A program made the translations under genes and the position numbers. The notes under the pieces are model-generated. The model saw only the letters and a program-made list of their open reading frames with translations, was not told the origin of the DNA and ran no database searches. From Luteolibacter rhizosphaerae (GTDB lineage Bacteria; Verrucomicrobiota; Verrucomicrobiia; Verrucomicrobiales; Akkermansiaceae), in contig NZ_JAPDDR010000007.1 of the NCBI RefSeq assembly GCF_025950095.1, positions 186,001 through 250,000 on the forward strand: a stretch of 64,000 bases of DNA, written 5' to 3'. Below, one piece after another: positions 45,485-63,915 of this stretch. Every line of letters starts with the position of its first letter. Positions within the stretch are counted from its first letter, which is position 1.

Positions 45485-46035
45485 CGGCGGCGCGAGGAGC
45501 GTGGCGTAGGGAGGGGAGGACGGCAAGCGGGGGCTGGGGTGGTCCTACTAACGGTGTGGATTTTCAACCGCGAATGGACGCGAATAGGTTTTTTGAGGGG
45601 GGGAGAGAGGCACCACGAATCTGGCGAATCGGACGAATTATCGTAGGGTCCGGGGGTGGGTGGAGTGAGCGATGCGGACGACTGGTGGATGCCGGGGGGA
45701 CTGGGTTTCTTACTGCGAAAAGCGCGAAAGGCCGCGAATAGGTTTTTGAGGGGGAGAGGGAGGCACCACGAATCCTTCGAATCGGACGAATTATCGTAGG
45801 GTCCGGGGGTGGGTGAAGTGAGCGGTGGCGGGCGGCTGGTGGATGCCGGGGGACTGGGTTTCTTACCGCGAAAAGCGCGAATGGGCGCGAAATTTAAAAG
45901 TAGTAGAACCACGGAAGACACGGAATACGCGGAAGGGGGAAGAGGATGGAGGATTGTGAATAAGGTGGTGATAAGTTGGAATGAAGCGGCGAGGCTGATT
46001 GCTTGTTCCATGGGGTCGCTGATAAAAGGCGCGCG
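45485..46035. other. 551-bp intergenic region between dnaE and the paralogue cluster
   Basis: Contains dnaE's upstream region, a tandem pair of about 154-bp repeats at 45581-45887, a short 'accacggaagacacggaatacgcgg' stretch at 45908-45932, and the leader of the first membrane-family gene. No convincing gene; small open frames inside are repeat-derived. Confidence 0.65.
45581..45887. repeat. Tandem duplication of an about 154-bp intergenic unit
   Basis: Copy A 45581-45734 and copy B 45735-45887 share 'cgaataggttttt', 'gaggcaccacgaatc', 'cgaatcggacgaattatcg', 'tagggtccgggggtggg', 'ctggtggatgccggg' and 'actgggtttctta' in the same order, with a few substitutions and small indels. The 'cgcgaat...cgcgaata' start belongs to a repeat type frequent in Verrucomicrobia. 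Confidence 0.85.
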
Positions 46036-48093
46036 ATGCCCGACGCCACCGAACGATTCATCTCCGCTGCTCGCTCCCACCTAGAGGACAATGCGGAGAT
46101 GCAGGTGGTGGCGGAGCGGGAGTTGCGGGGGATGATGGAGGGGCACGCGGAGCAAGATGCGGCGATCCAGATTGCGGCCGATCGTCTTCGGAAGCGAGGG
46201 CGCGGGGGACGGGCGGCCGTGGCGGCGGCGGTGGTGATCGCGCTGGTTTCCGGCGGGTGGCAAGTCTTCCGGGCCTACGAGCAGCGGGAGATGATCAAGG
46301 CGAGTATCAATCTGGAATACCCGGACGAATTTCCCCGGTGGCTGGCCAAGGAGGATGCGACGGAGGCGCAGCGGTGGATGCTTTTCAACGAAACGGAGCC
46401 GCTGTGGGAAAGCGACCGGAAGAATCCGGCTTACTTCGCCAACCATAGCCGGCGGCTGCTCAAGGACTATCGCCGCTTGCCGGAAGACTTCCTGAAGACC
46501 GCGGAGGCCATTGATCCCCTGAACGGCTATTTCCTTTTCATGGCAGCCGAGAACGCGGCGAAGGGCAGCGTGGAATCCGATCCCGACCCTACTTGGAAGA
46601 AAGGCGATCCGGTCAAATGGACGATCAAGAAAGCGGATGCCTATGCGGAGTCGCTCGCGCTGCTGCGGAAGGCGATTGCCCTGCCGGAGTGGAACACTCA
46701 TCGCAGCGAGATCATCCGCGGTCGCTTCGAAGCGCTAGGAGAGACGCGGGATCTAGTGGATCGTACGGGGAAGGCTTACCTCCAAATCCAGAACGACGGG
46801 ATCTGGTTCAACAACATCCCCTATGTGCTGGCAGCGCGGGCCGAGGAATGCGGACGGAATGGTGATCGGGAAGGACTACGCGAACTTGCCACAGTGTGGG
46901 AGACCCTTGTCCCGCGTCTCTTGGATCAAGCCCATCCTACGCTCTTCTACGGAATCGTAACAGCGGGTGGGTTGGTGAACCCGATCGACAATATCACCGA
47001 GTCGGCAAGCAAGCTGGGCGAACGCGAGTTGGTGGAGAAGTTCCGGCGTTACAAGGAGGCGCTGCTAACGGTGACCAGGTCCCCTCGCGAGAACCCGCAT
47101 GTGGACGAGCGGTCGGAAACGACCCTGAGGCATGGATCGCAGCAGGCGGTGGCGAGTTCGCTCGAGCAATTCGCGATCGCCAGCATGCCGGTGGCGACGA
47201 AGGCGGATCTGGAGCCAGGGCGTCTGGCCGAATATGCGATGGTGGATCGCGGCTTGGCTTTGCTCTGCTGGGCGATCTTCGGGCTGGCCAGCGTGGTGGT
47301 GGCCCTCTTCCGCTTCCGCGGGGGAATGATGGCGCGCAAGATGTCCGGACTACTCAGCGGGCTGATCCGGCCGGGCGATCATGCAAGAGTGATCGGGGGC
47401 GGAATCCTGCTGCCCTTCGCCCTGTGGATGCTGATCACCCGATTCACGCCGCTGGGAGCCCGCGAATGGAGTGCGGGAATCCACGGAATGACGATCCCGA
47501 TGGGACAATGGCTCGGCACGATGGTGCTGATGCTTCTACTGCCGGTGCTGCTGGTAAAGAGAGCCGTGGCGAGCCGGGCGGGATTCCTGGGCCTAGGAAT
47601 GCAGCGGCCAGTGTGGGGATGGGTAGCCGCGGGGTTGGTGGTGATTGGCATCTTGAGCTACGGAGCGGTCATACCGGCGAGCGAGCCGGACTCCGAGCAC
47701 TGGGGCGGGCTCTACGGCATGCAATCGGAGTTCGTCGATCTGAACATCATGGAAGCGGACGGGCCTGCGCAGTGGCTGCTGCTCTTTTCCACGGGCATGA
47801 TCGCACTCGGCCTCGCGTGGCTTGTGGGCTGCGGGGGATGGGCCATCTTCTCGGCTCACGGCAAGATGCTGGAGAGAAGCATGGTCAGCCGGGCGCTGGT
47901 CCCGGCATACGTGGCGGGGATGTTCCTGATGCCGGCGGCTGCACGGCTTTACCACGCGGAAGAGTGCCGCCGGATCGCGCAGGACCGTTGGATGGGCGTA
48001 AGCGAAGAGAGCGCACCAGTCAGCATTTACGAGCATCGTCTGGCGGAGTCTTATCTGGAACGTTTGCGGACGGCCTTCGAGGGGGTGAGATGA
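46036..48093 (+). CDS. Unrecognised 7-helix membrane protein, family member 1
   Basis: 685 aa. Layout: a soluble N terminus with motif ERFISAARSHLEDNAEMQ (7-23), one helix at 59-75, a large helical domain (76-404) with IDPLNGYF (159-166), then six helices (405-424, 451-468, 488-508, 527-547, 580-604, 618-638) and a short tail. Conserved blocks are LEPGRLAEYAMVDR (392-405), FRFRGGMMARKMSGLL (425-440), REWSAGIH (476-483) and VPAYVAGMFLMPAAARLYHAEE (622-643). By the positive-inside rule residues 76-404 would be outside. I know no matching family. It is first of four tandem paralogues; its stop overlaps the next start (ATGA). Confidence 0.75.
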   Translation: MPDATERFISAARSHLEDNAEMQVVAERELRGMMEGHAEQDAAIQIAADRLRKRGRGGRAAVAAAVVIALVSGGWQVFRAYEQREMIKASINLEYPDEFPRWLAKEDATEAQRWMLFNETEPLWESDRKNPAYFANHSRRLLKDYRRLPEDFLKTAEAIDPLNGYFLFMAAENAAKGSVESDPDPTWKKGDPVKWTIKKADAYAESLALLRKAIALPEWNTHRSEIIRGRFEALGETRDLVDRTGKAYLQIQNDGIWFNNIPYVLAARAEECGRNGDREGLRELATVWETLVPRLLDQAHPTLFYGIVTAGGLVNPIDNITESASKLGERELVEKFRRYKEALLTVTRSPRENPHVDERSETTLRHGSQQAVASSLEQFAIASMPVATKADLEPGRLAEYAMVDRGLALLCWAIFGLASVVVALFRFRGGMMARKMSGLLSGLIRPGDHARVIGGGILLPFALWMLITRFTPLGAREWSAGIHGMTIPMGQWLGTMVLMLLLPVLLVKRAVASRAGFLGLGMQRPVWGWVAAGLVVIGILSYGAVIPASEPDSEHWGGLYGMQSEFVDLNIMEADGPAQWLLLFSTGMIALGLAWLVGCGGWAIFSAHGKMLERSMVSRALVPAYVAGMFLMPAAARLYHAEECRRIAQDRWMGVSEESAPVSIYEHRLAESYLERLRTAFEGVR

Positions 48094-50150
48094 TGCAAAC
48101 GAACCCTAATCCGGAAGCGGAGGAAGTGGCAGCCGAGGAACGATTCATCGCCGCTGCGGTCGCTCCGCTGGGGGAGAATGCGGAGATGCAGGTAATGGCG
48201 GGGGAGGAGCTGCGCGATGCCTTAGAGCGCGGGAAAATTGAAGAGGGGAAGGCAGTCCTACTGTCGGGGCGGCTGGAGAAGGCAGGCGGGGAAAGACAAG
48301 CCGTTCCGTGGTTCTACGGGATTGTCGGTCTCATCTCAGTGGTGGCTCTTGCCATCGGTTTCCGGGATCTCAGGCGCTGGAAATCGGCGAGCTACGCATT
48401 GATCGGAATGTCCGATCCGATCCAATCCTTCGGGCACTTCATCCCCTTTCATCGGAACCTGGTGATGGAACCCGCCAAATTCCTGGGGGAATTCACCCCG
48501 GATCAGGAGGAGCTGTTGTTCGGCCGTACCAGTGAAAACTATTGGGACGGCTACTTGAAGCTGCACCAGCGATCCCCAAAAGATGCGGTTCTCTATGCCG
48601 AGCACGTCAAGTCGCTGGCAAGGTGGAACAAACTTCCAGCCGACTTCATCGAGACCGCAGATGAGATTGATCCGGAGAACGGTTGGTTCCGCTATCTGGC
48701 GGCGGGATACAAGGCCCGGACGGCGGTGCATACCTTGGGATATGGTAAAAGAATCCGCTATCAGATCAAGGATCCGGCGCTGTTAACGGAGGCCCTAGGG
48801 CTCATGAAAGAGGCTGCGGAGAAACCGAAGTTCGATTCCTATCGGGACGAGATGTTATCGCGGCGGCTCGCCGTGCTACATCCGGGAGACGACGTAATCG
48901 GACGATTCTTCGTGCAGGAGTACGTCTCGTCCGAGGGGGGGAATGATTACTTTGTCCCCCGGGCGTTGGGCGACGCCATCGCCGCACAGGCAGAGGAACT
49001 TGCCTCGAAAGGAGAGAAAGATTCATTCCTGAAGCTTCACGAGAATCAGAAGCTTCTGGCAAAGCGGGTGCTGGAGAATGCCAGTTCAACTACCACGGAT
49101 TCCCTATGGGCAGCGGCTGTATTGAGGTCGCCCTCTCCTGTCACGATGGAGAAGGCGGCGAGGACCTTGGGACTAGATCACGAGGGTGAGCAGATCCGGA
49201 AAACTCAAGCCGCTCTCGAGGAGCTTTGGAGAACACGGGAGAGTCGAGTTACGGAGGAGTTTTACGGCAAAGGTAGTATTGCAAGTACGCGAACGCGATG
49301 GGACTCCTTGAGCACGCAGCCGCTGGATTTCGAGTCATTGAAGCCCGGGGCGAAAGCGGAGCATGTGTTGTTCGACAGGATCCTTTGTTACGGTGGCTCG
49401 GTGGTGCTGCTGATTGCCGCGGGCCTCGCCGCCTTGTGCCGGTTCCGCCATGGCAAGCAGGCGAGGTTGCTATCGCTCTCCCTGCTGAGAACCGTGACCG
49501 TGAAGGATCATGCGTGGATCGTCGGACTAGGGATTGTTCTGCCATTCACCTGCTATCTGGCGGCGGAGACTATCCCAGCACTCGCGGGCGCGGAGTGGAG
49601 CGTCAGCAGAACTATACCGGGAGATGCCGTGCGCATCGCCGCAGCACTGGCCCTGATGGTATCCCTGCCGGTCATGGTCGCAGCCTGGCGGCTGGATCTC
49701 GGCTGGGGCAGACATTCCACGAGCCGCTGGCAGTGGGTGGGAGGGCTTGCGGCTCTTGCAGCAATCGTCGCGTGGGTAGGTGGCTGCACGATAGGAGAAG
49801 GGAAACACGGACAAGGGACGCCGGAGCTTTTTCAAGCGGGCATGATCGCTGCGGGGGTCTGCGTAGTATGGCACTTCCTGATCGGGCTCCTCGGAGTGCT
49901 GGTCCGCGGACGCGGGGAAGTCCTGAAGGGGATGGTGCTATGCCGCGCGGTGATTCCCGCCTATGCGGGCGGAATGCTTCTGATGGCGGGAGCTAGCTTT
50001 CTATTCCATGCGCAAGAGAAGGCATGGATTGCGAAAGATAGCTTCACGAAGATCGATCCAGCGGTGCCTGCAGCGAGCCGGTTCGATCATGAGACCGCAT
50101 TGCAGATCCGGGCGGATTCACTAAGGGTTCTTGATGCGGAGAGGGAGTGA
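48090..50150 (+). CDS. Unrecognised membrane protein, family member 2
   Basis: 686 aa. The start at 48090 overlaps the previous stop by 4 bp. The N-terminal motif is ERFIAAAVAPLGENAEMQ, then a helix (about 74-90), the domain with IDPENGWFRYLAA, and the membrane block with YGGSVVLLIAAGLAALCRFRHG and DHAWIVGLGIVLPFTCYLA. The C-terminal signature is IPAYAGGMLLMAGASFLFHAQE. It lacks the RGG of the others at the loop (RHGKQARLL) and is the most divergent member of the tandem set. Function unknown. Confidence 0.75.
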   Translation: MMQTNPNPEAEEVAAEERFIAAAVAPLGENAEMQVMAGEELRDALERGKIEEGKAVLLSGRLEKAGGERQAVPWFYGIVGLISVVALAIGFRDLRRWKSASYALIGMSDPIQSFGHFIPFHRNLVMEPAKFLGEFTPDQEELLFGRTSENYWDGYLKLHQRSPKDAVLYAEHVKSLARWNKLPADFIETADEIDPENGWFRYLAAGYKARTAVHTLGYGKRIRYQIKDPALLTEALGLMKEAAEKPKFDSYRDEMLSRRLAVLHPGDDVIGRFFVQEYVSSEGGNDYFVPRALGDAIAAQAEELASKGEKDSFLKLHENQKLLAKRVLENASSTTTDSLWAAAVLRSPSPVTMEKAARTLGLDHEGEQIRKTQAALEELWRTRESRVTEEFYGKGSIASTRTRWDSLSTQPLDFESLKPGAKAEHVLFDRILCYGGSVVLLIAAGLAALCRFRHGKQARLLSLSLLRTVTVKDHAWIVGLGIVLPFTCYLAAETIPALAGAEWSVSRTIPGDAVRIAAALALMVSLPVMVAAWRLDLGWGRHSTSRWQWVGGLAALAAIVAWVGGCTIGEGKHGQGTPELFQAGMIAAGVCVVWHFLIGLLGVLVRGRGEVLKGMVLCRAVIPAYAGGMLLMAGASFLFHAQEKAWIAKDSFTKIDPAVPAASRFDHETALQIRADSLRVLDAERE

Positions 50151-50202
50151 TCGGGAAAGAGCGATATTCCCTTCCAAGGTGGAGTTCTGCTAGAGAAACG
50201 CG

Positions 50203-52278
50203 ATGTCTGACGCCGCCGAGAAATTCATTGCCGCCGCTGTCACCCCGCTGAGGGAGAATGCGGAGATGCAGACCACCGCGGAGCGGGAACTGCGGGGGAT
50301 GATGGAGGGTAGGGAGATCTCAGCAGAGGTAGTTGAGGAAGCGGGGAGACAAGTAGGGCCCAGGAGGAGATGGGGACGGCCCGTGGTCGGGGTGATGCTG
50401 GCGGTCTCGCTGCTACTCGGGGGGGTGCAGGTATTCCGACTCGTTCAACAGCGGGAACTGATCAGGGCGTTCCTGGACCTTGAATACCCCGCTGAGTTTC
50501 CGGAGTCGTTTGCCAAGCGAAACGCCACGGCGGGGCAGTTGCTGCTAATCGCCGATGATACGGGAGCCCTACTGGCAAGCGACCCGGACAATGCGGCTTA
50601 CCTTGCAGACCATTGCCGCTTCCTCCTTACGCAAGGTCGCAAGGAACTGCATGCGGGCCTTCTTAAAACCGCGGGAGAGATCGACCCAGAAAATGGCTAC
50701 TTCCTCTATCTCGCTGCCAACCAAGCGGCAAAAAAGTGCGTCAAATCGATCCCCGGACCGCGCCGGAAAAAGGGTGAGCCACTGCCCATCGAGCAATGGA
50801 AAATCGAGGATGAGGCTCGATTCGAGGAGGCGCTGAGTCTTCTGAAGAAGGCGGTCGCGCTGCCGAAGTGGGAGAGCTACCGCGGGGAGATTGCGCAAGC
50901 GCGATTCGAGGCACTGGAAAGCCCAAGGGATCTCGTGGATGGGATGGGCAAAGCCCTTCTTCAGAGTCGTCTCGACCGAAGGCCGATCGATTCCACCTCG
51001 TACGTGATCGCAGCTAAGGCCGAGCAGTGCGGCCTGAACGGAGATCGGGAGGGACTGAGGGAGTTGGCGCTTATATGGGAAGCACTCGCCCGGCGGCAAC
51101 TTGAGCTTGCGCGGCCCGGTCTTCTCGACGGGCTCTTCATCGGTGGAGACATCGTGTTCCCAATCAGCAATCTGAGAGACGCGGCAAGCAAGCTGGGCGA
51201 GAGCGAGCTTGAAGCAAGGTTCCGCAGACTGAGGGAGGCCTACGATCACCTATCGAGGCAGCGCCGGGAAAGCCCGGCGGGGGAGGCGCGGAATGACACG
51301 ATCGAGCACCGCGGGGCCTATCTCGCCGCAGTGGCTCCGCTCGAGAGTTTCGGCCCGAGCGACGCGCCGGCGATTCAAGACGAAGAGCTGAAGCCCGGGC
51401 GGCTTGCCGACTACGCCTTGATGGATAGCTGGCTGGCTTTGACGGGCTGGGTGATGCTGGGGCTCGCGAGCCTGACAATCGCCTTGTACCGATTCCGGGG
51501 AGGTTTGTTTGCGCGCAAGATGTCGTGTGTGCTGTCGGGACTGATCCGACCCGGCGACCATGCCTGGATCTTCGCGGGCGGGATCCTATTTCCGATGGTT
51601 TGCCTGCTGCTTCTCAGCCGGCTTACCGATTTGGGTTGTCGCCAGTGGAATGGCGGTCTGCACGGGATGGCGGTTCCGGTGGGGCAGTTCTTGGCGACTT
51701 TGCTAATCATAATGGGACTGCCGATCCTGATCGCAAGAAGGCAACTGCGGAAGCGAGCGGGTTTCCTAGGGCTATGTGAGACCAAGTCATGGGCGGGGTG
51801 GTTGGCGGTACCGATGGGTATCGCGGCGATTGTCATCTACGGGCTGTCGATCCCGGCATTCGACCCGAAGACCGGCGCTCCGGATGGTCTCATCAATGCT
51901 GCGGATTTCATCGATCTCGACATCACGGAAGCGGAGGGGCTGCCACGGACGCTGCTCTTCACTGCGACCGGTGGAGTGGCGGCGGGATTGATTTGGCTAA
52001 TCGGGGCGGGAATGCGGGCGCTCTTCTCGTCACATGCCCGCTTGCTAGAGCGCTGTGTCCTGAGTCGGGTGGTGATTCCGGCCTATCTCGGCGGGATGGT
52101 GCTGATGGCGACGATGGCCATGCTTCATCATGCCGAGGAGAGATATTGGGTGAAGCAGGACCGGTGGATGGCGGTGAGCGCCGAAACTGCTCCGCGAGGC
52201 AGTCATGAACATTGGCTGGCGACTTCCTATTTCGAGAGGCTGCGGGAAGCTCTGGATGGCCGCATCGAGACGAGATGA
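50203..52278 (+). CDS. Unrecognised membrane protein, family member 3
   Basis: 691 aa. Closest to member 1: EKFIAAAVTPLRENAEMQ, AERELRGMMEG identical to member 1, IDPENGYFLYLAA, LKPGRLADYALMD, FRGGLFARKMSCVLSGLIRPGDHAWI and IPAYLGGMVLMATMAMLHHAEE. Seven helices in the same order. It starts 53 bp after member 2. The strong match to member 1 in both N- and C-terminal blocks suggests recent duplication with the more divergent gene 2 between them. Function unknown. Confidence 0.75.
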   Translation: MSDAAEKFIAAAVTPLRENAEMQTTAERELRGMMEGREISAEVVEEAGRQVGPRRRWGRPVVGVMLAVSLLLGGVQVFRLVQQRELIRAFLDLEYPAEFPESFAKRNATAGQLLLIADDTGALLASDPDNAAYLADHCRFLLTQGRKELHAGLLKTAGEIDPENGYFLYLAANQAAKKCVKSIPGPRRKKGEPLPIEQWKIEDEARFEEALSLLKKAVALPKWESYRGEIAQARFEALESPRDLVDGMGKALLQSRLDRRPIDSTSYVIAAKAEQCGLNGDREGLRELALIWEALARRQLELARPGLLDGLFIGGDIVFPISNLRDAASKLGESELEARFRRLREAYDHLSRQRRESPAGEARNDTIEHRGAYLAAVAPLESFGPSDAPAIQDEELKPGRLADYALMDSWLALTGWVMLGLASLTIALYRFRGGLFARKMSCVLSGLIRPGDHAWIFAGGILFPMVCLLLLSRLTDLGCRQWNGGLHGMAVPVGQFLATLLIIMGLPILIARRQLRKRAGFLGLCETKSWAGWLAVPMGIAAIVIYGLSIPAFDPKTGAPDGLINAADFIDLDITEAEGLPRTLLFTATGGVAAGLIWLIGAGMRALFSSHARLLERCVLSRVVIPAYLGGMVLMATMAMLHHAEERYWVKQDRWMAVSAETAPRGSHEHWLATSYFERLREALDGRIETR

Positions 52279-52344
52279 TGGGATCAGTCCGGTCTTCGAT
52301 GGAAACCCATTACTGATGAAGAGCGGGATTCCCCTGCCCTGCCG

Positions 52345-54423
52345 ATGTCTGATAGTTCATCGCCAATGCCGGAAGCAGGAGAACGATTGATCGCCGCGGC
52401 GACGGATCCGCTGAGGGCGAATGCGGAGATGCAGGTGGCGGGCGAGAGGCTGCTGAGCGAGGCGATTGCGAGATCGGGAGGAGCGGAGGGTGATGAGATC
52501 CTGAAGGCGGCGGACCGGTTGGAAGGATCTAACAAGAATGGCAGACCGGGCTGGAGCAGGGTGCTCGGCCATGTCGCGGCTTGGTGCTTGTACGCGGCGC
52601 TCCTGCTGACGGGGATCATGTATTGGGTTTCGGTGAAGCCCACGCTGCTGGATATCCAATCGCTGGGAGGACTCGGGAGCATGAGTCCGCTAGGCCCGGC
52701 GGGGAAAGAGGTGGAGCCCGAATGGAAGAGGGAACTGAGCGCGGAGCAGCGGCTGCGGCTTTTCGGCGATGTTTCGCAGACATCGAAGGCGCGGCGCTGG
52801 AAGCCGCTGTGGGATCTCGATCCGACACGGCCGGAGTTCTTCGCCGAGTATGCTTCGGAGTACATTCGCGAGCACAAGGATGTGCCGCCGGACTTCCTCA
52901 AGATCGGGGAAGAGATCGATCCCGGGAATGCATGGTATCCGCTGATGGCATTCGCGATGGAGGCGGGGAAGGCGATCGAGAGCATCCCGCGGAGCGAGGA
53001 AGAGAAGGCCGCCAAGGTTCCCGCGAAGTATGTCCTGAAGGATCCGCAAGGGCTCGAGCGGGCGAAGCTTTTGCTGCGGCAGGCGGTGGCGATGCCACGG
53101 CTGGATACGCGACAACGCGAGCTGCTGGCGGCGAGGGTCCGGCTGCTGCCGCACGACAACGATTGGCCACATAGCATGCAGGGGGTGGCCTACATGGCAG
53201 GTGAAGGAGGGCGGCTGCTGCCTCTGAGGGAAGTGATCGGGATGCTGCGAGTGGAGTGCGAGCGCATCCAAGAGAGCGGCGATGCCGAGGCGATGCGGGC
53301 CTTGATCCGGGAATGGGAGGCGCTGGCGAAGCTGCTGGTAACGACTCCCGAGTGCAGCTTGATCGATGCACTGGTGAAGCAGGCGGTACTGCGCGGCGGC
53401 TTCTCCGCAACCGCGAAGGCGGCGCGGAAGATGAACCTGGAGGAAGCCGGGCGGCTGGAAGGGATCGACCAGCGACTGAAGGAGTATCGCGACAAGATCC
53501 AAGCGGCGAAGGGTGGCTACCAGGATTTCAAGAAGCGGGCAGGCGCGCTGGCGGGGCTCTCCCTGCCGACGGTGCAGAAGCAGGTGCTCAAGCCTCCGGG
53601 GATCACGGACGAGGAGCTGAAGCCCGCGCGGGTGGCCGAGCACGAGTTCATCACCAAGATCGCGCTAGGCGCGTGGTCGGCGAGTCTGGGGATGATCGCG
53701 CTGGCGGTCTTTCTCTACCGCTTCCGGGGCGGGGCCCTGCGCCGGATCCTGGCCGGGCAGATGAGCCAGTTGCTCGACCGGAAGGACCGGATGTGGATCA
53801 TGGGCGCAGGAGTAATCGCCCCGCTGGCCGCAGGCTGGCTCCTGCTACGGCTGCCGGGGACGGGAGCGAGGGAATGGAGCTTGATCGCGATCGAGTTCGC
53901 CGCGCCGATGATGGTAATTCTGTTAGGCGTGTGGCTGACGATCCCGCTGCCGGTGCTGATCGCGCGGTGGCGTTTGAGGAAGAAGGCAGGCTTTGCAGGG
54001 CTTGCTTGGAAGCGGGAGTGGATCCCGTGGCTGCTGGTGGCTTGGATGCTGCTGGCGATGCCGCTGGCGGGTTGGGCGCTGCTGCCATGGAACCTGAAGC
54101 CTCCGGTGGCGATGGCTTATGTGGCTCTGTCCTCGCTGGCGCAGGGGTGGATGATCGCAGTGGGTCTGCGCGGACTTCTCAGCAAGCAGGAGTATTTGTT
54201 GAAGCGGGTGACCCTATCGCGCGTGGTCTATCCTGCTTATCTGCTGGCAGGCATTTTGACGGGAGCGATGGCGATGCTCAGCCATCAGCTTGAAAAGCGG
54301 GCGATCCGGGCGGATCAACTGACGGGGATCTCCGCGGAGAAGCCTTCCATGAGCATCTACGAATACGAGATCACGCAGGTGATGGGGCGGGAGCTCCGGG
54401 AAGTGATCGAAACCGAAGACTGA
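52345..54423 (+). CDS. Unrecognised membrane protein, family member 4
   Basis: 692 aa. N-terminal motif ERLIAAATDPLRANAEMQ, helix about 70-90, domain with IDPGNAWYPLMA, later LKPARVAEHEF, YRFRGGALRRILAGQM, RMWIMGAGVIAPLAAGWLLL and YPAYLLAGILTGAMAML. The HAEE motif has become HQLE. Codon use resembles the neighbours. It is followed by a VOC gene after 10 bp, so the whole block may be one transcript. Function unknown. Confidence 0.75.
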   Translation: MSDSSSPMPEAGERLIAAATDPLRANAEMQVAGERLLSEAIARSGGAEGDEILKAADRLEGSNKNGRPGWSRVLGHVAAWCLYAALLLTGIMYWVSVKPTLLDIQSLGGLGSMSPLGPAGKEVEPEWKRELSAEQRLRLFGDVSQTSKARRWKPLWDLDPTRPEFFAEYASEYIREHKDVPPDFLKIGEEIDPGNAWYPLMAFAMEAGKAIESIPRSEEEKAAKVPAKYVLKDPQGLERAKLLLRQAVAMPRLDTRQRELLAARVRLLPHDNDWPHSMQGVAYMAGEGGRLLPLREVIGMLRVECERIQESGDAEAMRALIREWEALAKLLVTTPECSLIDALVKQAVLRGGFSATAKAARKMNLEEAGRLEGIDQRLKEYRDKIQAAKGGYQDFKKRAGALAGLSLPTVQKQVLKPPGITDEELKPARVAEHEFITKIALGAWSASLGMIALAVFLYRFRGGALRRILAGQMSQLLDRKDRMWIMGAGVIAPLAAGWLLLRLPGTGAREWSLIAIEFAAPMMVILLGVWLTIPLPVLIARWRLRKKAGFAGLAWKREWIPWLLVAWMLLAMPLAGWALLPWNLKPPVAMAYVALSSLAQGWMIAVGLRGLLSKQEYLLKRVTLSRVVYPAYLLAGILTGAMAMLSHQLEKRAIRADQLTGISAEKPSMSIYEYEITQVMGRELREVIETED

Positions 54424-54433
54424 AGCAGCCGAT

Positions 54434-54820
54434 ATGAAGATCCGAGGTATTCACCATGTGGCGATCATCGCGGGCGATTACGAGCGCTCGAAGGCCTTTT
54501 ATACGGAGGTGCTGGGGTTCCAGGTGATCCGGGAGACTTACCGGGAAGTACGAGATTCGTACAAGTTGGACCTGGAGTTGCCGGATGGGACGCAGATCGA
54601 GCTGTTCTCGTTTCCGGGGGCGCCGGAGAGGGCGTCGTATCCGGAGGCGCGGGGGTTGCGGCACCTGGCGTTTGCCACGGGGGATCTGGATGCGGCGGTG
54701 GCGTTTTTGTTAGAGAAAGGGGTGGAGGTGGAGGCAGTAAGGGTGGATGAGTTGACGGGGAGAAGGTTCACGTTTTTTGCGGATCCGGACGGTTTGCCGC
54801 TAGAGCTTTACGAGGGGTGA
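54434..54820 (+). CDS. VOC (glyoxalase-type) protein
   Basis: 128 aa. It starts with the metal-ligand strand IHHVAIIAGDYERSKAFYTEVLGF, with a second half beginning LRHLAFATGDLDAAVAFL and ending FFADPDGLPLELYE, so both beta-alpha-beta modules of the vicinal oxygen chelate fold are present. Ligands His8, Glu (IELFSF), His (LRHL) and Glu (LELYE) are in place. Glyoxalase I or a similar lyase is likely. It is 10 bp after member 4 of the membrane family on the same strand. Confidence 0.9.
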   Translation: MKIRGIHHVAIIAGDYERSKAFYTEVLGFQVIRETYREVRDSYKLDLELPDGTQIELFSFPGAPERASYPEARGLRHLAFATGDLDAAVAFLLEKGVEVEAVRVDELTGRRFTFFADPDGLPLELYEG

Positions 54821-58031: not shown

Positions 58032-58976
58032 ATGAAGTCCTCGAATCTCATCGCCATCGGAGCCGCTCTGGCCGGCTTTGCCATAGGCTGGATCGCCAAG
58101 CCGTCCGGGGAAGCGCCTGCGGAGAAAACGGCAGAAATGGCCGATGCGGGGAAGAAGCCGCGGGCCGGGATGGATTCGAAGTCGGGCGACCGCTCGGAGC
58201 GTCCGCTGGTGCTCAAGCAGCGGCCCAGTGCCAAGGGTAGTGCCGAGCGAGATCCGGAAATCTCGGCTGCCGAGCGGAACTTTCAGGTGAGCTTCAGCAG
58301 TGCGGGCGAGCGAACCAACAATGCACGGCTGAACCGGCTTTCCGAGGCTCTGGGCCTGAGCGAAGAGCAGAAGACGGCGGTGAACGCGCTGCTGAGCGGG
58401 CGGCGCGAGGGATTCAAGGACCTGAAAGGGAAGGGCAAGACGCCTTCCGAGATGGTGGCGGAAGCAGGCAACTCGGTGGCGGTCTTCGAGAACGCCCTGA
58501 AGGATGTGCTCGATGACGAGCAGATGCAGGCCTACCAAGATCTGAAAGTCCGCGAGCGGCAGAACGACATCGAGGCGAAGGCAGCGACCGAGTTCGCCGA
58601 TTTGGTCCGGCAGGTGGATCTTTCCATCGAGCAGCGCGATCAAGCGATGGAAGCGATGCGCAAGATCAGCGAGGAATCCTTCGCGAAGAGGCCTGCGGGT
58701 TGGGAGTTGATGTCGGAATCGATGGAGATGATGGGGGGCCTTTACAACGATGCCTTCGAGAACATGTCGGGCTTCTTGGATGATCCGGCGGTGATGGGCA
58801 ACCCGGCCGAGATGCAAAAACGGATGAACGAGGCACACCGCGCCGCCTCCGAGCAGAAGGTTTCGCGGCTCACGGAGATCCTGACGCCGGCGCAGTTGCA
58901 GCAGTTCCGTGCGACGCTGGATGCGCGGTCGAATTTCCGTGAGATTTCGCCTGTGCCGCCGACACCCCAGCGCTGA
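58032..58976 (+). CDS. Membrane-anchored LTXXQ/Spy-like helical protein
   Basis: 314 aa. A short anchor (LIAIGAALAGFAIGWIA, residues 6-22) is followed by a linker and an all-helical domain (about 85-300). The segments LGLSEEQKTAVNALLSGRREGF, LDDEQMQAYQDLKV and RLTEILTPAQLQQFRATLDA carry the LTXXQ pattern of Spy/CpxP-like periplasmic chaperones. The family match is by eye and moderate. The TGATG overlap couples it to a parvulin gene, which strengthens a protein-folding theme. Confidence 0.6.
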   Translation: MKSSNLIAIGAALAGFAIGWIAKPSGEAPAEKTAEMADAGKKPRAGMDSKSGDRSERPLVLKQRPSAKGSAERDPEISAAERNFQVSFSSAGERTNNARLNRLSEALGLSEEQKTAVNALLSGRREGFKDLKGKGKTPSEMVAEAGNSVAVFENALKDVLDDEQMQAYQDLKVRERQNDIEAKAATEFADLVRQVDLSIEQRDQAMEAMRKISEESFAKRPAGWELMSESMEMMGGLYNDAFENMSGFLDDPAVMGNPAEMQKRMNEAHRAASEQKVSRLTEILTPAQLQQFRATLDARSNFREISPVPPTPQR

Positions 58977-59827
58977 TGCCGATGCTGAGAGTCAATGGTG
59001 AGCTGGCGGATCCAGGGTTAATCGAGGAGGCCTTTGCACGGCTGAAGGCGGAGGCGGAGCTGCTGAGCGAGGTGTCCTGCTGCGAGCGCGACGAGGAGTT
59101 CCGGACGCAGGCGGAGGAGGAAACGACCGATGGCATCCTGCTGGCGCAGGAGGCGGAGCGGCGGGTGCCGATGCCATCCGGTGAGGAGGTCCGCACGGCC
59201 TTCGAGAACACGCTGCGGCAATGGCGTGAGCACGGGGCATCTTGGGATCTGCTGGATGCCGAGCGGGATTCGCTGCGGGCGGAGACGATTTCGCGGATGC
59301 GGATGGAGCGCTTTACGGAAGAACTGTGGCAGGAGCTTCCCGAATTGAGCCATGCGGATCTGCAAGCGTGGTATCAGACGAACCGCCCACGCTTCCGGAC
59401 CACGGCGGCGGCGCGCCCTCTGCATCTGGTGCGCTTCCCCGAGGGAGGCGATCCGTGGGATGACTACGAGGCGATGCTGAAGCTGCGGGCGAGGGCGCTG
59501 GCGGGAGAGGACTTCGCGGCGCTGGCGAAGGAGCACACGAAGAAGCGCGGTGGGGAGATCGACTTGGGCTGGATCGAGCAACAGCGCGTGTTCAATCCCT
59601 TCGAGGCGATGTTGTTCTCGCTGCGAGCCGGTGAGGTAAGTCCGGTCTTCTACTACGAGCAGGCGCTGCACCTAGTGAAGGTGGAGGAAGTGAGGGAGGC
59701 GGAGGTGAAGGCCTTCGACGAGGTGGCAGAGATCGTGCGCGAGGAGCTGGTGCGCGAGCGGCGGCTGAAGGTGCTGAAGGATTTGGCAATCAAGCTAAGG
59801 GAGACCGCGGTGATCGAGAGGGCTTGA
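58976..59827 (+). CDS. Parvulin-type peptidyl-prolyl isomerase
   Basis: 283 aa. The C-terminal half (about 140-245) holds a PpiC rotamase domain: ARPLHLVRFPEG, ARALAGEDFAALAKEHTKKRGGEIDLGWI, FNPFEAMLFSLRAGEVSPVFYYEQALHLVKV. The N-terminal helices (20-130) resemble the SurA/NifM chaperone part. No signal peptide or anchor is visible, so it is cytoplasmic or exported by another route. Starts within the stop of the LTXXQ-like gene (TGATG). Confidence 0.88.
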   Translation: MPMLRVNGELADPGLIEEAFARLKAEAELLSEVSCCERDEEFRTQAEEETTDGILLAQEAERRVPMPSGEEVRTAFENTLRQWREHGASWDLLDAERDSLRAETISRMRMERFTEELWQELPELSHADLQAWYQTNRPRFRTTAAARPLHLVRFPEGGDPWDDYEAMLKLRARALAGEDFAALAKEHTKKRGGEIDLGWIEQQRVFNPFEAMLFSLRAGEVSPVFYYEQALHLVKVEEVREAEVKAFDEVAEIVREELVRERRLKVLKDLAIKLRETAVIERA

Positions 59828-60470: not shown

Positions 60471-62603
60471 TCAATCGGGACCGGGCCCGAAGATCGCTTT
60501 CAACTCCGAGTGGATCCACCTCGCGTGCTCGAAGCCGGCGCGGGAGCCGGTGGCGTAGTGGTCCTTGTTGGTCACGGATTCGAACTCAATGCGGGCGGTC
60601 CACTTCTTCTCCTCCGCGTGGATCACGAAGATGGAGAGAACCGATAGACCGAGAGCCAAGGCCATTACGGGGGTGCAAGCGCGAAGCAGGATGAGGCGAT
60701 GCAGGCGGCGTGGCGATTTCTTCAGATAGCAGCCGACGAGGATCATCGAGGCCCAGAGCGCGGGTAATCCAAGTACCGTTGCGATGACGGCTTCAATCCA
60801 GTCCCCGTCCATACGCGGAATATGGGCAAGCGTGGGAACCGCTGACATGACAGGCATGGAGCCCAAGGCGAAGAGTGCGAAGGCCGGTCCCGCATCGATA
60901 AGCCGCCACCCGAACCCGACCCCCCAGGCCCGCTTGGCGAGGCGCCATCGCGCCACCTCCACGGTGCAGAGCAGGAGTGAGAGTGCGAGACCCGTCAGTT
61001 GCAAGGCCATGAGAAAAGTCTGCGACCGTTCCATGGTGTGATTACGGAAGCCCGGCCAAGGAAGTCGTTGGAGCAACAGATAAAGTGCGATCGGCAATGC
61101 CATTCCGAGGCCGACGATCCAGAGCCAATCCCGCCATGCCAGCAACTGCAGCAGGCGATCTGCGAGACGTCGGAGGCCCGGACGCGGATAATGTGCGGTG
61201 AAAAGGATGAGGCCGAGCATGCAGCAGAGCAGAGCGGAGAGGACGTGCATCAGCACGCGTTCCCCCATGGCGTATTCGGCGAGCCTGCCGCCTCGCAACT
61301 CGGACTCCATGAGAGCGCTAACCCCTGGATAGCGTCCGATGGTCCAGCCTTCAGCGAGATTGCTAGCGCGTTGATCCGTAAAACTGCCCCGCGGAATCCT
61401 CGATGCGTCCTTCAATTCCGCACGACGAGGTGCCTCTGCAAAGCTCTTGAATCTCGCGGCCACGGCCGGATCACCCATGATGCCGTACGCGTCCTCGATG
61501 GCCTTTGCTCCTAGGGTAGCCGCCTGCCACAAGATGACGCCCTGATTCAGATCCGACTGATCCCTCTTACAAAAGGTCTGAAAGATCCGTTCGTAGCGCC
61601 TGGCAAGTTCATCCAGTTCCCTGCGATTGCCAGTGTTCGCGAAATGAAGTGCGGCTCCTTGAAATAAGAGCGGAAGTTGATCGAGGCATCCAGAGTCAAA
61701 GGGGCGACCCTCCGGATGCTGCCTCTTGAACTGAGAGAACAGAAGCTGCTCCGGATAATCCACCGGAGCAGACCAAGCCGACATGCGCAGTGCCGAAAGC
61801 CGAGATCGGAAATCGGTCCAAGCCGGTAGGGCCAACGCATGATCAATCTCTGCGAGAATGACCTTCAACTCGGCTTCGTCCTTCACCCTCGCCGGTTTCG
61901 CAGGAGTTATGACAGCCCTGCTTCCCCAACCCTTCTTAGTTTTTCTTGTCGCTGGCTCGATGACATCGCCAATCCGGGAGCAGGCGTCGATGAGCGCGAA
62001 CCAGCCGTTATCGGGATCCAGTTTCTCGCCGGTGGCCACCCAGTTCTCCGGCCATTTGTACCAACTTCCTCTATAGGCTAAGACGTATGCATAAAAGTGA
62101 GCGGGATCTTCCTCATGGGCTTCCCATACCGCCTTCCATCTCCGCGCATCATCAATTCCTTGGAGATCTCCCATCGCGACGAGACGCTGGTCGTGAGCGA
62201 TCCGAGACATGATCCAAGACCTCGCGTCCTCGTCATCCGGCTCGCCTATCAAGAGTTCCTCCACCTCATTGGGGATAAACTTATCGAAGGAATCCGTCGC
62301 CATGCGGATGCGCCAAAGCGACTGACGCGTGGCAGGAGAAAAGAGAAATCCCAATGATAGCGTCAACACGAGCAGCGTCGCGAGTCGGGGCACAAGCGCA
62401 CGAAACTTGCTCGTAAGCGCCGTTGACCGCATGCGGTCAGTAACGACAGGAAACGCGTCGGGAGCCACCGAGGTGGGCATCCCCGAAGCGAGGCGGAGCG
62501 TGTCCTCCAATACCTTGCGGGAGGCCTGATCCTCTTTGAGCGGGATGAGGACGACATCGACGAGGTCTTGCTTGTCCGAATCGAGATCCACCGGTGCCAC
62601 CAT
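60471..62603 (-). CDS. Unrecognised membrane protein, family member 5 (divergent, inverted)
   Basis: 710 aa. It shares the plan of the four tandem proteins: an N-terminal motif (VVLIPLKEDQASRKVLEDTL), a helix at about 72-89, the central domain with LDPDNGWFALIDA, the block LRGGRLAEYAMGER, DWLWIVGLGMALPIALYLLL and the C-terminal HAEEKKW. The FRGG loop is lost (YPRPGLRRLADR) and the linker is longer. It is on the opposite strand 6 kb away, separated by housekeeping genes. Function unknown. Confidence 0.75.
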   Translation of the reverse strand: MVAPVDLDSDKQDLVDVVLIPLKEDQASRKVLEDTLRLASGMPTSVAPDAFPVVTDRMRSTALTSKFRALVPRLATLLVLTLSLGFLFSPATRQSLWRIRMATDSFDKFIPNEVEELLIGEPDDEDARSWIMSRIAHDQRLVAMGDLQGIDDARRWKAVWEAHEEDPAHFYAYVLAYRGSWYKWPENWVATGEKLDPDNGWFALIDACSRIGDVIEPATRKTKKGWGSRAVITPAKPARVKDEAELKVILAEIDHALALPAWTDFRSRLSALRMSAWSAPVDYPEQLLFSQFKRQHPEGRPFDSGCLDQLPLLFQGAALHFANTGNRRELDELARRYERIFQTFCKRDQSDLNQGVILWQAATLGAKAIEDAYGIMGDPAVAARFKSFAEAPRRAELKDASRIPRGSFTDQRASNLAEGWTIGRYPGVSALMESELRGGRLAEYAMGERVLMHVLSALLCCMLGLILFTAHYPRPGLRRLADRLLQLLAWRDWLWIVGLGMALPIALYLLLQRLPWPGFRNHTMERSQTFLMALQLTGLALSLLLCTVEVARWRLAKRAWGVGFGWRLIDAGPAFALFALGSMPVMSAVPTLAHIPRMDGDWIEAVIATVLGLPALWASMILVGCYLKKSPRRLHRLILLRACTPVMALALGLSVLSIFVIHAEEKKWTARIEFESVTNKDHYATGSRAGFEHARWIHSELKAIFGPGPD

Positions 62604-62703: not shown

Positions 62704-63915
62704 CTACTTCCTCTCCTTGTGGGACTGGTCGGCCTTGATGTCCTCTCCGGCCCAGATGCGCTTCTGGGTCCATGGCTCGGGAGCGGCGGTCCAGAAGGGA
62801 TCGTTCGCGGGAAGGCCGAGATGTTGAAGACCGGCGAGACAGAGGTAGAGGCTGCCGGTGGAGATGTATCCCTCGCGAATGGAAGGCTGGTGGCCGACGG
62901 CGCCGACTTGCAGCCAGCCCTGTTTGTCGAAGGTGCCGGGAGCTTCAAGGGTGCGACGGATGACGGCGGTGAGGGCACCGCGGACGGCGGCGGGCGAGGT
63001 GGCCGCAGGTAGTTCCTTGCGCCAGGCCATCATGGAGAGATGCTGAAAGGCACCGAAGCGGTAGGCGCTGGAACGACCGATGACCGGGTAGGTGCCCTCC
63101 GGCGAGATGAGACGCTCCTGCACGGAGGCGTAACGCTTCGCACGGGCAAGCACGCGGGCCCACGATTCACCAAGCGGATCCTGCTTCTCCCGGCAGACTC
63201 CGATGACGGCGAGCATGGCGGGCTGGATGACGAAGCTATTGTAGTAGTCCCAGTGATACTCCGGGCCATCGCCATAGGTGCCATCGCCAAGATACCACTC
63301 CTCATGCTTCTGCAGGGCATACTTGATCGGTGCCATCTCGCACTCGCCGGTGAGTTTCCAGAGCGCGGCTTCCACCAGCGCGGAGAAGAGCAGCCAGTTG
63401 CTCTCATAAGGCTTGATCGCGCGGGTCTGCTTGAGGGCGGCTACCAGATTCGCCTTCTCGCTTTCCTTGAGCGGAGCCCAGAGCTGATCGGGGGCCTGGA
63501 TGAGAGCTTGGGAAAGGAAGGCGGCATCGACGAGCGGTTGGCCAACCTCGGTGAAGTTCATGTAGTCCGGCGAAGCGGGATCGGTGGCCATGACCAGGGC
63601 CTTGCGGGAAAGTTCGATGTAGCGGGCGCGAAGCTTGCCCTCCGGTGACTCATCCGCTCCGAGAGCGAGCCAAGGGGCGATGCCACCCATCGTGCGGCCG
63701 AAGGCTTCGAGGTAGGTCCACTTCGCGCGGTCCTTTTCACCGGGGCCGAGGGGCAGCTCTTGCTTCAGTTTTCCCGTGGCGAGGTTCTCAAGGACCGGGC
63801 GCGCGATGCGATCGAGCGCCTTCACCGAGAACTCGCGATCCTGCCGCCCGGTCTGCGCGTGCAGAGGAGAGAGCAGGAGGGAAAAGATCAGCGAGATGGC
63901 CGCAGGAAGACGCAT
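62704..63915 (-). CDS. DUF2264 secreted protein
   Basis: 403 aa. A signal peptide (LPAAISLIFSLLLSPLHA) precedes a DUF2264 domain: REFSVKALDRIARPVLENLA, EAFGRTMGGIAPWLALG, KPYESNWLLFSALVEAALW, GDGTYGDGPEYHWDYYNSFV, PVIGRSSAYRFGAFQHLS and GYISTGSLYLCLAGLQHLGLP. These are (alpha/alpha)6-barrel-like proteins found near sugar-degradation genes. A glycoside hydrolase or lyase role is inferred from the family fold only. Full length. Confidence 0.93.
   Translation of the reverse strand: MRLPAAISLIFSLLLSPLHAQTGRQDREFSVKALDRIARPVLENLATGKLKQELPLGPGEKDRAKWTYLEAFGRTMGGIAPWLALGADESPEGKLRARYIELSRKALVMATDPASPDYMNFTEVGQPLVDAAFLSQALIQAPDQLWAPLKESEKANLVAALKQTRAIKPYESNWLLFSALVEAALWKLTGECEMAPIKYALQKHEEWYLGDGTYGDGPEYHWDYYNSFVIQPAMLAVIGVCREKQDPLGESWARVLARAKRYASVQERLISPEGTYPVIGRSSAYRFGAFQHLSMMAWRKELPAATSPAAVRGALTAVIRRTLEAPGTFDKQGWLQVGAVGHQPSIREGYISTGSLYLCLAGLQHLGLPANDPFWTAAPEPWTQKRIWAGEDIKADQSHKERK

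Follow-up and report, generated by a model that had tools for sequence, protein, structure and literature searches.

Tandem membrane protein genes of Luteolibacter rhizosphaerae form a PadR-free branch of a putative HAAS-PadR sensor family

Introduction

Four related membrane protein genes lie in tandem at positions 46036 to 54423 of a 64,000 nucleotide (nt) stretch of Luteolibacter rhizosphaerae (contig NZ_JAPDDR010000007.1, positions 186,001 to 250,000, referred to here as the window), and raise the question of what kind of protein they encode and to which known system, if any, it is related. A sequence-only reading of the region had recognised no known family, and suggested receptors, channels or interbacterial surface proteins with a diversifying outer domain. 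Here we report that these genes are an unusual, PadR-free branch of a HAAS-PadR sensor family. The explanation that we favour, and consider reasonably probable, is that they encode HAAS-type membrane sensors whose PadR was lost, whose docking domain was remodelled and whose genes were multiplied.

According to the available portion of Ravi et al. (2024, PMC11237479), in HAAS-PadR systems a membrane protein senses and its HAAS domain controls the regulator PadR. The same portion describes HAAS as “always” coupled with PadR, and mentions HAAS domains fused to “various uncharacterized 6TM, 4TM, and 2TM domains”. The pair, with both parts always together, has been proposed as an alternative to two-component systems. 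Like these dyads, the proteins studied here combine HAAS-type helices at the N-terminus with several membrane helices, and most members outside the Akkermansiaceae (the taxonomic family of the window genome) adjoin a lone PadR gene; unlike them, the window genes have neither an adjacent PadR nor the GxP pattern discussed below. A comparable case is found in Listeria where, in the part of PMC6624303 available, disabling the PadR protein LltR is reported to raise expression of an operon of PadR and a DUF1700 membrane protein more than 100-fold. This LltR-Lmo0600 operon of PadR and a HAAS-type membrane protein resembles that of distant members of our family, but no TPR-like outer domain is described in that part of the paper, and the window genes lack the PadR.

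Kinship of the N-terminal domain to HAAS

When scanned directly, the window proteins give no match over cut-off to any Pfam family (none of five matches the HAAS model), and only weak hits to NCBIfam, the five copies not matching NF038403 (permease prefix domain 1). To this extent the earlier statement that no known family is recognised stands, though not for the individual domains, as the N-terminal domain appears from sequence comparison to be derived from HAAS and the outer domain is TPR-like. The kinship to HAAS comes from distant full-length members of the family, which align co-linearly over positions 3–674 of a model of 65 rows, 64 of them from Akkermansiaceae. When eight such members were scanned against PF22564 (HAAS), seven matched at E 0.05 or better, with two over the cut-off, one equal to it as printed and four below. 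The remaining one, L163 (L-numbers denote fetched loci), has no PF22564 match, yet is over the cut-off of NF038403, as are five of the eight in all (three being below). The family thus resembles NF038403 proteins in the N-domain of these five, and differs from them in that no permease domain is recognised and the window copies do not match.

The N-terminal motif given in the sequence-only reading, [ER]FIxAAxxPLxxNAEMQxxAxxEL, aligns with xxFLDxATxGLxxDPELRLDVRxELxSHL, the stretch that forms the first two helices in the HAAS-type domain. Two N-domain profiles, one of 72 sequences and one of 18, were built separately and match each other at 96% (P 5e-9, 42 columns). None of the controls reached 5%, whether they were windows elsewhere along the protein (30) or column shuffles (12). 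The two groups differ in the GxP kink: the pattern [LFMI]GxP is found in none of the 72 Akkermansiaceae N-termini compared to 24 of 38 PadR-linked loci, and its G is invariant across an alignment of 11 PadR-linked domains. A PDB search with the N-domain profile of the PadR-linked members returned no HAAS-labelled entry, the best match being a designed protein (1.6e-4).

Co-occurrence with PadR

Outside the Akkermansiaceae we read 67 stretches, covering all 58 genomes with a match in the surveys of the order, phylum and class described below. Both HAAS and PadR are present in 42, HAAS without PadR in none, neither in seven, and PadR without HAAS in one; the rest were cut at a contig end (eight), were short pieces (three), or held no member at 1e-5 (six). 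PadR lies directly upstream and on the same strand in all 42 HAAS-bearing loci that have enough upstream sequence (38 + 4), and is missing from seven of the eight HAAS-less loci with enough sequence. The eighth, L222, is a broken frame with stops, scored as “no HAAS, PadR”, whose upstream part matches HAAS positions. Fisher's test of HAAS versus PadR gives 6e-6 for the 44 scorable loci of the first batch, uncorrected for relatedness. Two upstream genes were tested in Pfam and both match PadR (7.5e-25 and 1.4e-22), their best NCBIfam model being TIGR03433 (acidobacterial PadR family), below cut-off; the remaining PadR calls come from a model built from six fragments, most of them from loci later searched. 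Outside the Akkermansiaceae, HAAS and PadR are thus present or absent together in the loci of this family.

The picture inside the Akkermansiaceae is different. PadR is beside family genes in none of the 62 fetched loci, which are part of all matches and of which L061 and L117 share one contig; a PadR-linked member is nevertheless present within the same order (L111). Two genomes that are 97% complete, with three and one family matches, have no PadR match anywhere, and thus PadR cannot be a general partner in this taxonomic family. In the unrooted tree, a branch with support 99 has all 78 Akkermansiaceae rows to one side, as would fit a single loss of PadR.

Outside the Akkermansiaceae, then, most members would be the membrane half of a HAAS-PadR dyad, in which the solenoid, the membrane part, or both may sense an envelope signal that the HAAS domain relays to PadR. 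By analogy with Ravi et al. (2024) and the work on Listeria LltR, PadR would control the two-gene operon. Within the Akkermansiaceae, PadR and the part of the third helix that bears GxP would have been lost, helices 1 and 2 kept, and the genes duplicated. The direction of change was presumably loss rather than gain, and the window proteins would still be membrane sensors or effectors, acting via a partner other than PadR. The sensor-like reading first given for the array is thereby supported. The family is a natural series, running from members with HAAS and PadR, through members with neither (two of which carry ankyrin repeats), to members with a remodelled HAAS domain, no PadR and many copies; it reveals which part of the HAAS domain tracks PadR, makes the idea of docking testable, and provides a sequence handle for a family that the scanned libraries leave unnamed in this lineage. 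No paper naming the family in its title or the opening of its abstract was found in the open literature.

Domain architecture and fold

Members of the family are built alike: a small cytoplasmic N-domain is joined by a single membrane helix to a large TPR-like solenoid outside the cytoplasm, and six further membrane helices follow. In paralogue 3, the copy used for structure modelling, the predicted cytoplasmic, putatively HAAS-derived domain lies at 50203..50352 (+; helices at residues 4–16, 20–34 and 41–50), the first membrane helix at 50374..50457 (+; residues 58–85), the predicted extracytoplasmic helical solenoid at 50500..51264 (+; residues 100–354), and the six-helix membrane domain at 51379..52158 (+; residues 393–652). 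The model, made from nine sequences, has a predicted local distance difference test score (pLDDT) of 76 and a predicted template modelling score (pTM) of 0.74, with its three N-terminal helices predicted at a pLDDT of about 80. Loop charges place the N-terminus inside, and the large domain and the C-terminus outside, and together with the predicted structure agree with the earlier view that residues 76–404 are helical and outside. The proposed seven membrane helices are seen by hydropathy in genes 1, 2 and 3 and in a fifth copy in the window, but gene 4 has eight, the extra hydrophobic segment lying within its outer domain.

Judging from the model, the outer domain probably folds as a TPR-like solenoid, though TPR is not proven. 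Approximately residues 96–358 resemble the bacterial TPR solenoids of PilW (PDB ID: 2vq2), TTC0263 (2pl2), YrrB (2q7f) and MamA (3as8), with Z-scores of 6.2–7.0 and a root-mean-square deviation of 4.5–6.3 Å; for residues 110–351 numerous TPR chains score Z 5–7.4, and the best row is a PCI domain at Z 8.0, a range that is common for helical repeats. A “DPDNAxYxYL” signature, which we take to be a TPR-like repeat, is visible in relatives. However, unlike those solenoids, the proteins scanned have no Pfam TPR match over cut-off (TPR_19 reaches 0.0026 in L148, and 0.028 in one of 65). A clear match to a TPR sensor was among the outcomes that the earlier reading named as counting against it. A PDB profile search of the family gave designed helical-repeat proteins as the best matches (6e-7), which we ascribe to helical-repeat composition.

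Fold searches with the whole gene 3 model gave nothing at E <0.001. The six-helix domain modelled alone has a pLDDT of 75, and we trust none of its matches: the top row is a CMP-sialic acid transporter-type chain (6i1z_B, probability 0.14), the highest probability belongs to cytochrome c maturation protein C (8ce1_C, 0.72, E 0.2, TM-score 0.28), and the best VIA Z is 5.6. The missing match does not mean that the membrane domain has a new fold. For an ABC permease, the other such outcome named in the earlier reading, there is no permease family among the Pfam matches and no confident fold match for the membrane domain. Ten of 63 loci contain an ABC-exporter cluster. In L114, where Pfam confirms it, the cluster immediately precedes the member in the same orientation; in L113 it faces the member, and in the others it is further away.

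Selection

Selection on the family looks purifying. The ratio of nonsynonymous to synonymous substitution rates (dN/dS) in five informative pairs is 0.15–0.32 for the outer domain and 0.12–0.36 for the membrane domain, the former being the higher in three of the five, though the ratios are rough as dS exceeds 1 in several pairs. Only a stretch near residues 355–392 is clearly fast (0.26–1.17); the first membrane helix reads 1.10 in one pair (30 codons). A sixth pair, in which the outer domain reads 1.3, is too close to be read. A diversifying receptor is therefore unsupported, contrary to what had been suggested for the outer domain.

Alternative explanations

Several observations weigh against our favoured explanation of PadR loss and domain remodelling. 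Searching the window genome for HAAS found nothing and no window protein matches the HAAS model, so that the link to HAAS depends on the family alignment. A strict GxP is also absent from 14 of the 38 PadR-linked members, and thus its loss alone does not amount to a loss of PadR binding, nor does linkage require the strict pattern. In the Akkermansiaceae at least L108 and L109 have no N-domain, and the N-domain profile did not recover the fifth window copy. By-eye comparison places all 57 matches of this profile in 18 genomes at the start of family members, the domain not being found on other proteins of those genomes; its conservation where present implies a partner, and none was found. Loci of related genomes are not independent, and we infer the order of events from a tree that is both unrooted and quickly made.

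The proteins might still signal via a PadR whose gene lies at another locus, which we consider quite unlikely. The window genome does hold two PadR-type genes and 16 of the 18 genomes of the genus at least one, but of the two local genes one overlaps by 4 nt the gene for a different, 876-residue membrane protein and the other is fitted better by HTH_34 than by PadR. Moreover, members are present in the two near-complete genomes lacking any PadR match, and strict GxP is absent from all 72 N-termini. It is possible, if doubtful, that the remodelled HAAS-derived domain recruits some other partner in the cytoplasm (in one subclade an AAA+ ATPase), and that the proteins form a PadR-free envelope-signalling module in all 18 genomes searched in the genus. 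No constant replacement partner is common to all loci of Akkermansiaceae members, whose surroundings are of several unrelated kinds, with dnaE and glyoxalase, AAA ATPase, sulfatase or protein kinase genes. The AAA+ ATPase gene lies upstream of members in six loci (L011, 8134–9798; L063, L065, L067, L069 and L087), in five of these it ends 1–4 nt into the first member as judged from the start chosen for the latter, and its nearest NCBIfam models, CDC48 and FtsH, are both below cut-off. The linked members form one clade (8 rows, support 95), and this, together with the overlap, makes the ATPase a candidate partner in that subclade. That it took the place of PadR there, with the membrane proteins as its anchors or substrates, is nevertheless unlikely, given that the linkage is confined to this clade and the window array sits between dnaE and a glyoxalase gene.

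The proteins might instead no longer signal, the six-helix domain being an effector related to transport, lipids or the cell wall, and the N-domain a regulatory remnant. The membrane domain is the better conserved of the large parts (mean pair identity 0.24 versus 0.20 for the outer domain), it has R, D, G, P and E residues that do not vary among the eight copies of the window's own genome, and the Listeria effect reported in the part of PMC6624303 cited above indicates that such a membrane protein can be an effector. Yet no fold match backs a transporter or enzyme, and those N-domains that are present show conservation, not decay. We regard this reading as unlikely, if less so than the replacement of PadR by an ATPase. 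The view put forward originally, of receptors, channels or interbacterial surface proteins with a diversifying outer domain, seems highly improbable. It draws on the variation from one to four copies at the dnaE locus, some of them broken, and on an outer domain somewhat less conserved than the membrane domain, but in the informative pairs dN/dS is well below 1 in every large domain, and only the first membrane helix and the linker, both short, exceed 1, each in single pairs. Nor did we see any link to interbacterial systems: the sole match in the PADLOC defence library is at 0.029, with none under 0.02.

Gene array, copy number and spread

The four tandem paralogues of 685–692 amino acids described from the sequence are borne out, as are the motifs named along them, all of which are found in the order given. 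Paralogue 1 (46036..48093, +) encodes 685 amino acids with seven predicted membrane helices, and its stop overlaps the start of paralogue 2 (48090..50150, +; 686 amino acids) in an ATGA at 48090–48093. Paralogue 3 (50203..52278, +; 691 amino acids) and paralogue 4 (52345..54423, +; 692 amino acids, alternative start at 52366) follow after gaps of 52 and 66 bp; protein starts were mostly picked by script. A fifth paralogue (60471..62603, −; 710 amino acids, E 1e-15 to paralogue 3), absent from the list of the sequence-only reading, lies outside the array near a DUF2264 gene (62704–63915) and a gene for a PpiC-type isomerase (58976–59827). Three further copies in the same genome, a tandem pair near 50–54 kb of contig C2 and a single gene near 109 kb, bring the total to eight.

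The order of divergence was also read correctly. With gene 3 as the sole query, a search of its own genome finds the other three with E-values well outside chance: gene 1, 48% identical to it, at 7e-199, and genes 4 and 2, each about 28–30% identical, at 8e-47 and 1e-42. The tree pairs gene 1 with gene 3 as sisters (support 100). Gene 2 falls into a group together with five copies that come from four other genomes (support 100), and gene 4 joins a single copy of another genome (support 95), so that the array consists of old copy lineages and one younger duplication. Across relatives the number of copies beside dnaE (identified by Pfam), and before the YaeR-type gene where this was found, varies from four in the window and three in L062 through two in L059, L061 (one broken), L064 and L074 to one in L066 and L060, with a broken single copy in L116. 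The tandem expansion proposed earlier is supported. Copies broken by internal stops or split frames were seen in L061 (8922–11042), L099 (10693–12754), L105 (6977–8986), L116 (7028–8967) and L222, a sign of copy birth and death.

Homologues extend well beyond this strain. All 18 genomes searched in the genus have matches. The window genome has eight and sixteen others have between one and seven; the remaining genome, which is fragmentary, has 15, though many of these are pieces. More widely, matches occur in 22 of 189 genomes of the order, 52 of 387 of the phylum (some of these weak) and 43 of 148 of one other class of the phylum; as at most 6, 3 and 7 candidates per genome were scored in these surveys, respectively, copy numbers there are lower bounds. 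One genome of another class holds four neighbouring copies without PadR and without HAAS (L165, 6846–15956), which are a separate local expansion. Other HAAS-less members are longer, at 940–961 amino acids (L230, 430–3315; L231, 1683–4505; L232, 1826–4648), and the two scanned, L230 and L231, end in C-terminal ankyrin repeats, from which it seems that the interaction module is exchangeable in the family.

Directly downstream of the array, after 10 bp, is a gene for a YaeR-type glyoxalase-I-like (VOC) protein (54434..54820, +). The same cluster is present at the dnaE locus in eight fetched loci, in two of which it overlaps the last family gene by 4 nt. A direct repeat of about 150 bp (45566–45891; 85 nt at 92% and 44 nt at 93%, spacing 153) is found in the interval from dnaE to gene 1; its 17-nt core is confined to this site within the window. 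Among other neighbours, cluster C17 was considered as a sigma factor, a name that we dropped for want of a Pfam match at 1e-5. A short hydrophobic protein, cluster C7, is encoded near one lineage of the family (L012, 4096–4647, 183 amino acids; L071, L072, L073 and L077), and has no Pfam or NCBIfam match. The PadR gene of the window genome that overlaps the gene for the 876-residue protein is found on contig C1 (L171, 4996–8048); this protein has a VIT domain match below cut-off, an N-terminus that is HAAS-like by eye, and a C-terminus that we presume to resemble a PEP-CTERM signal.

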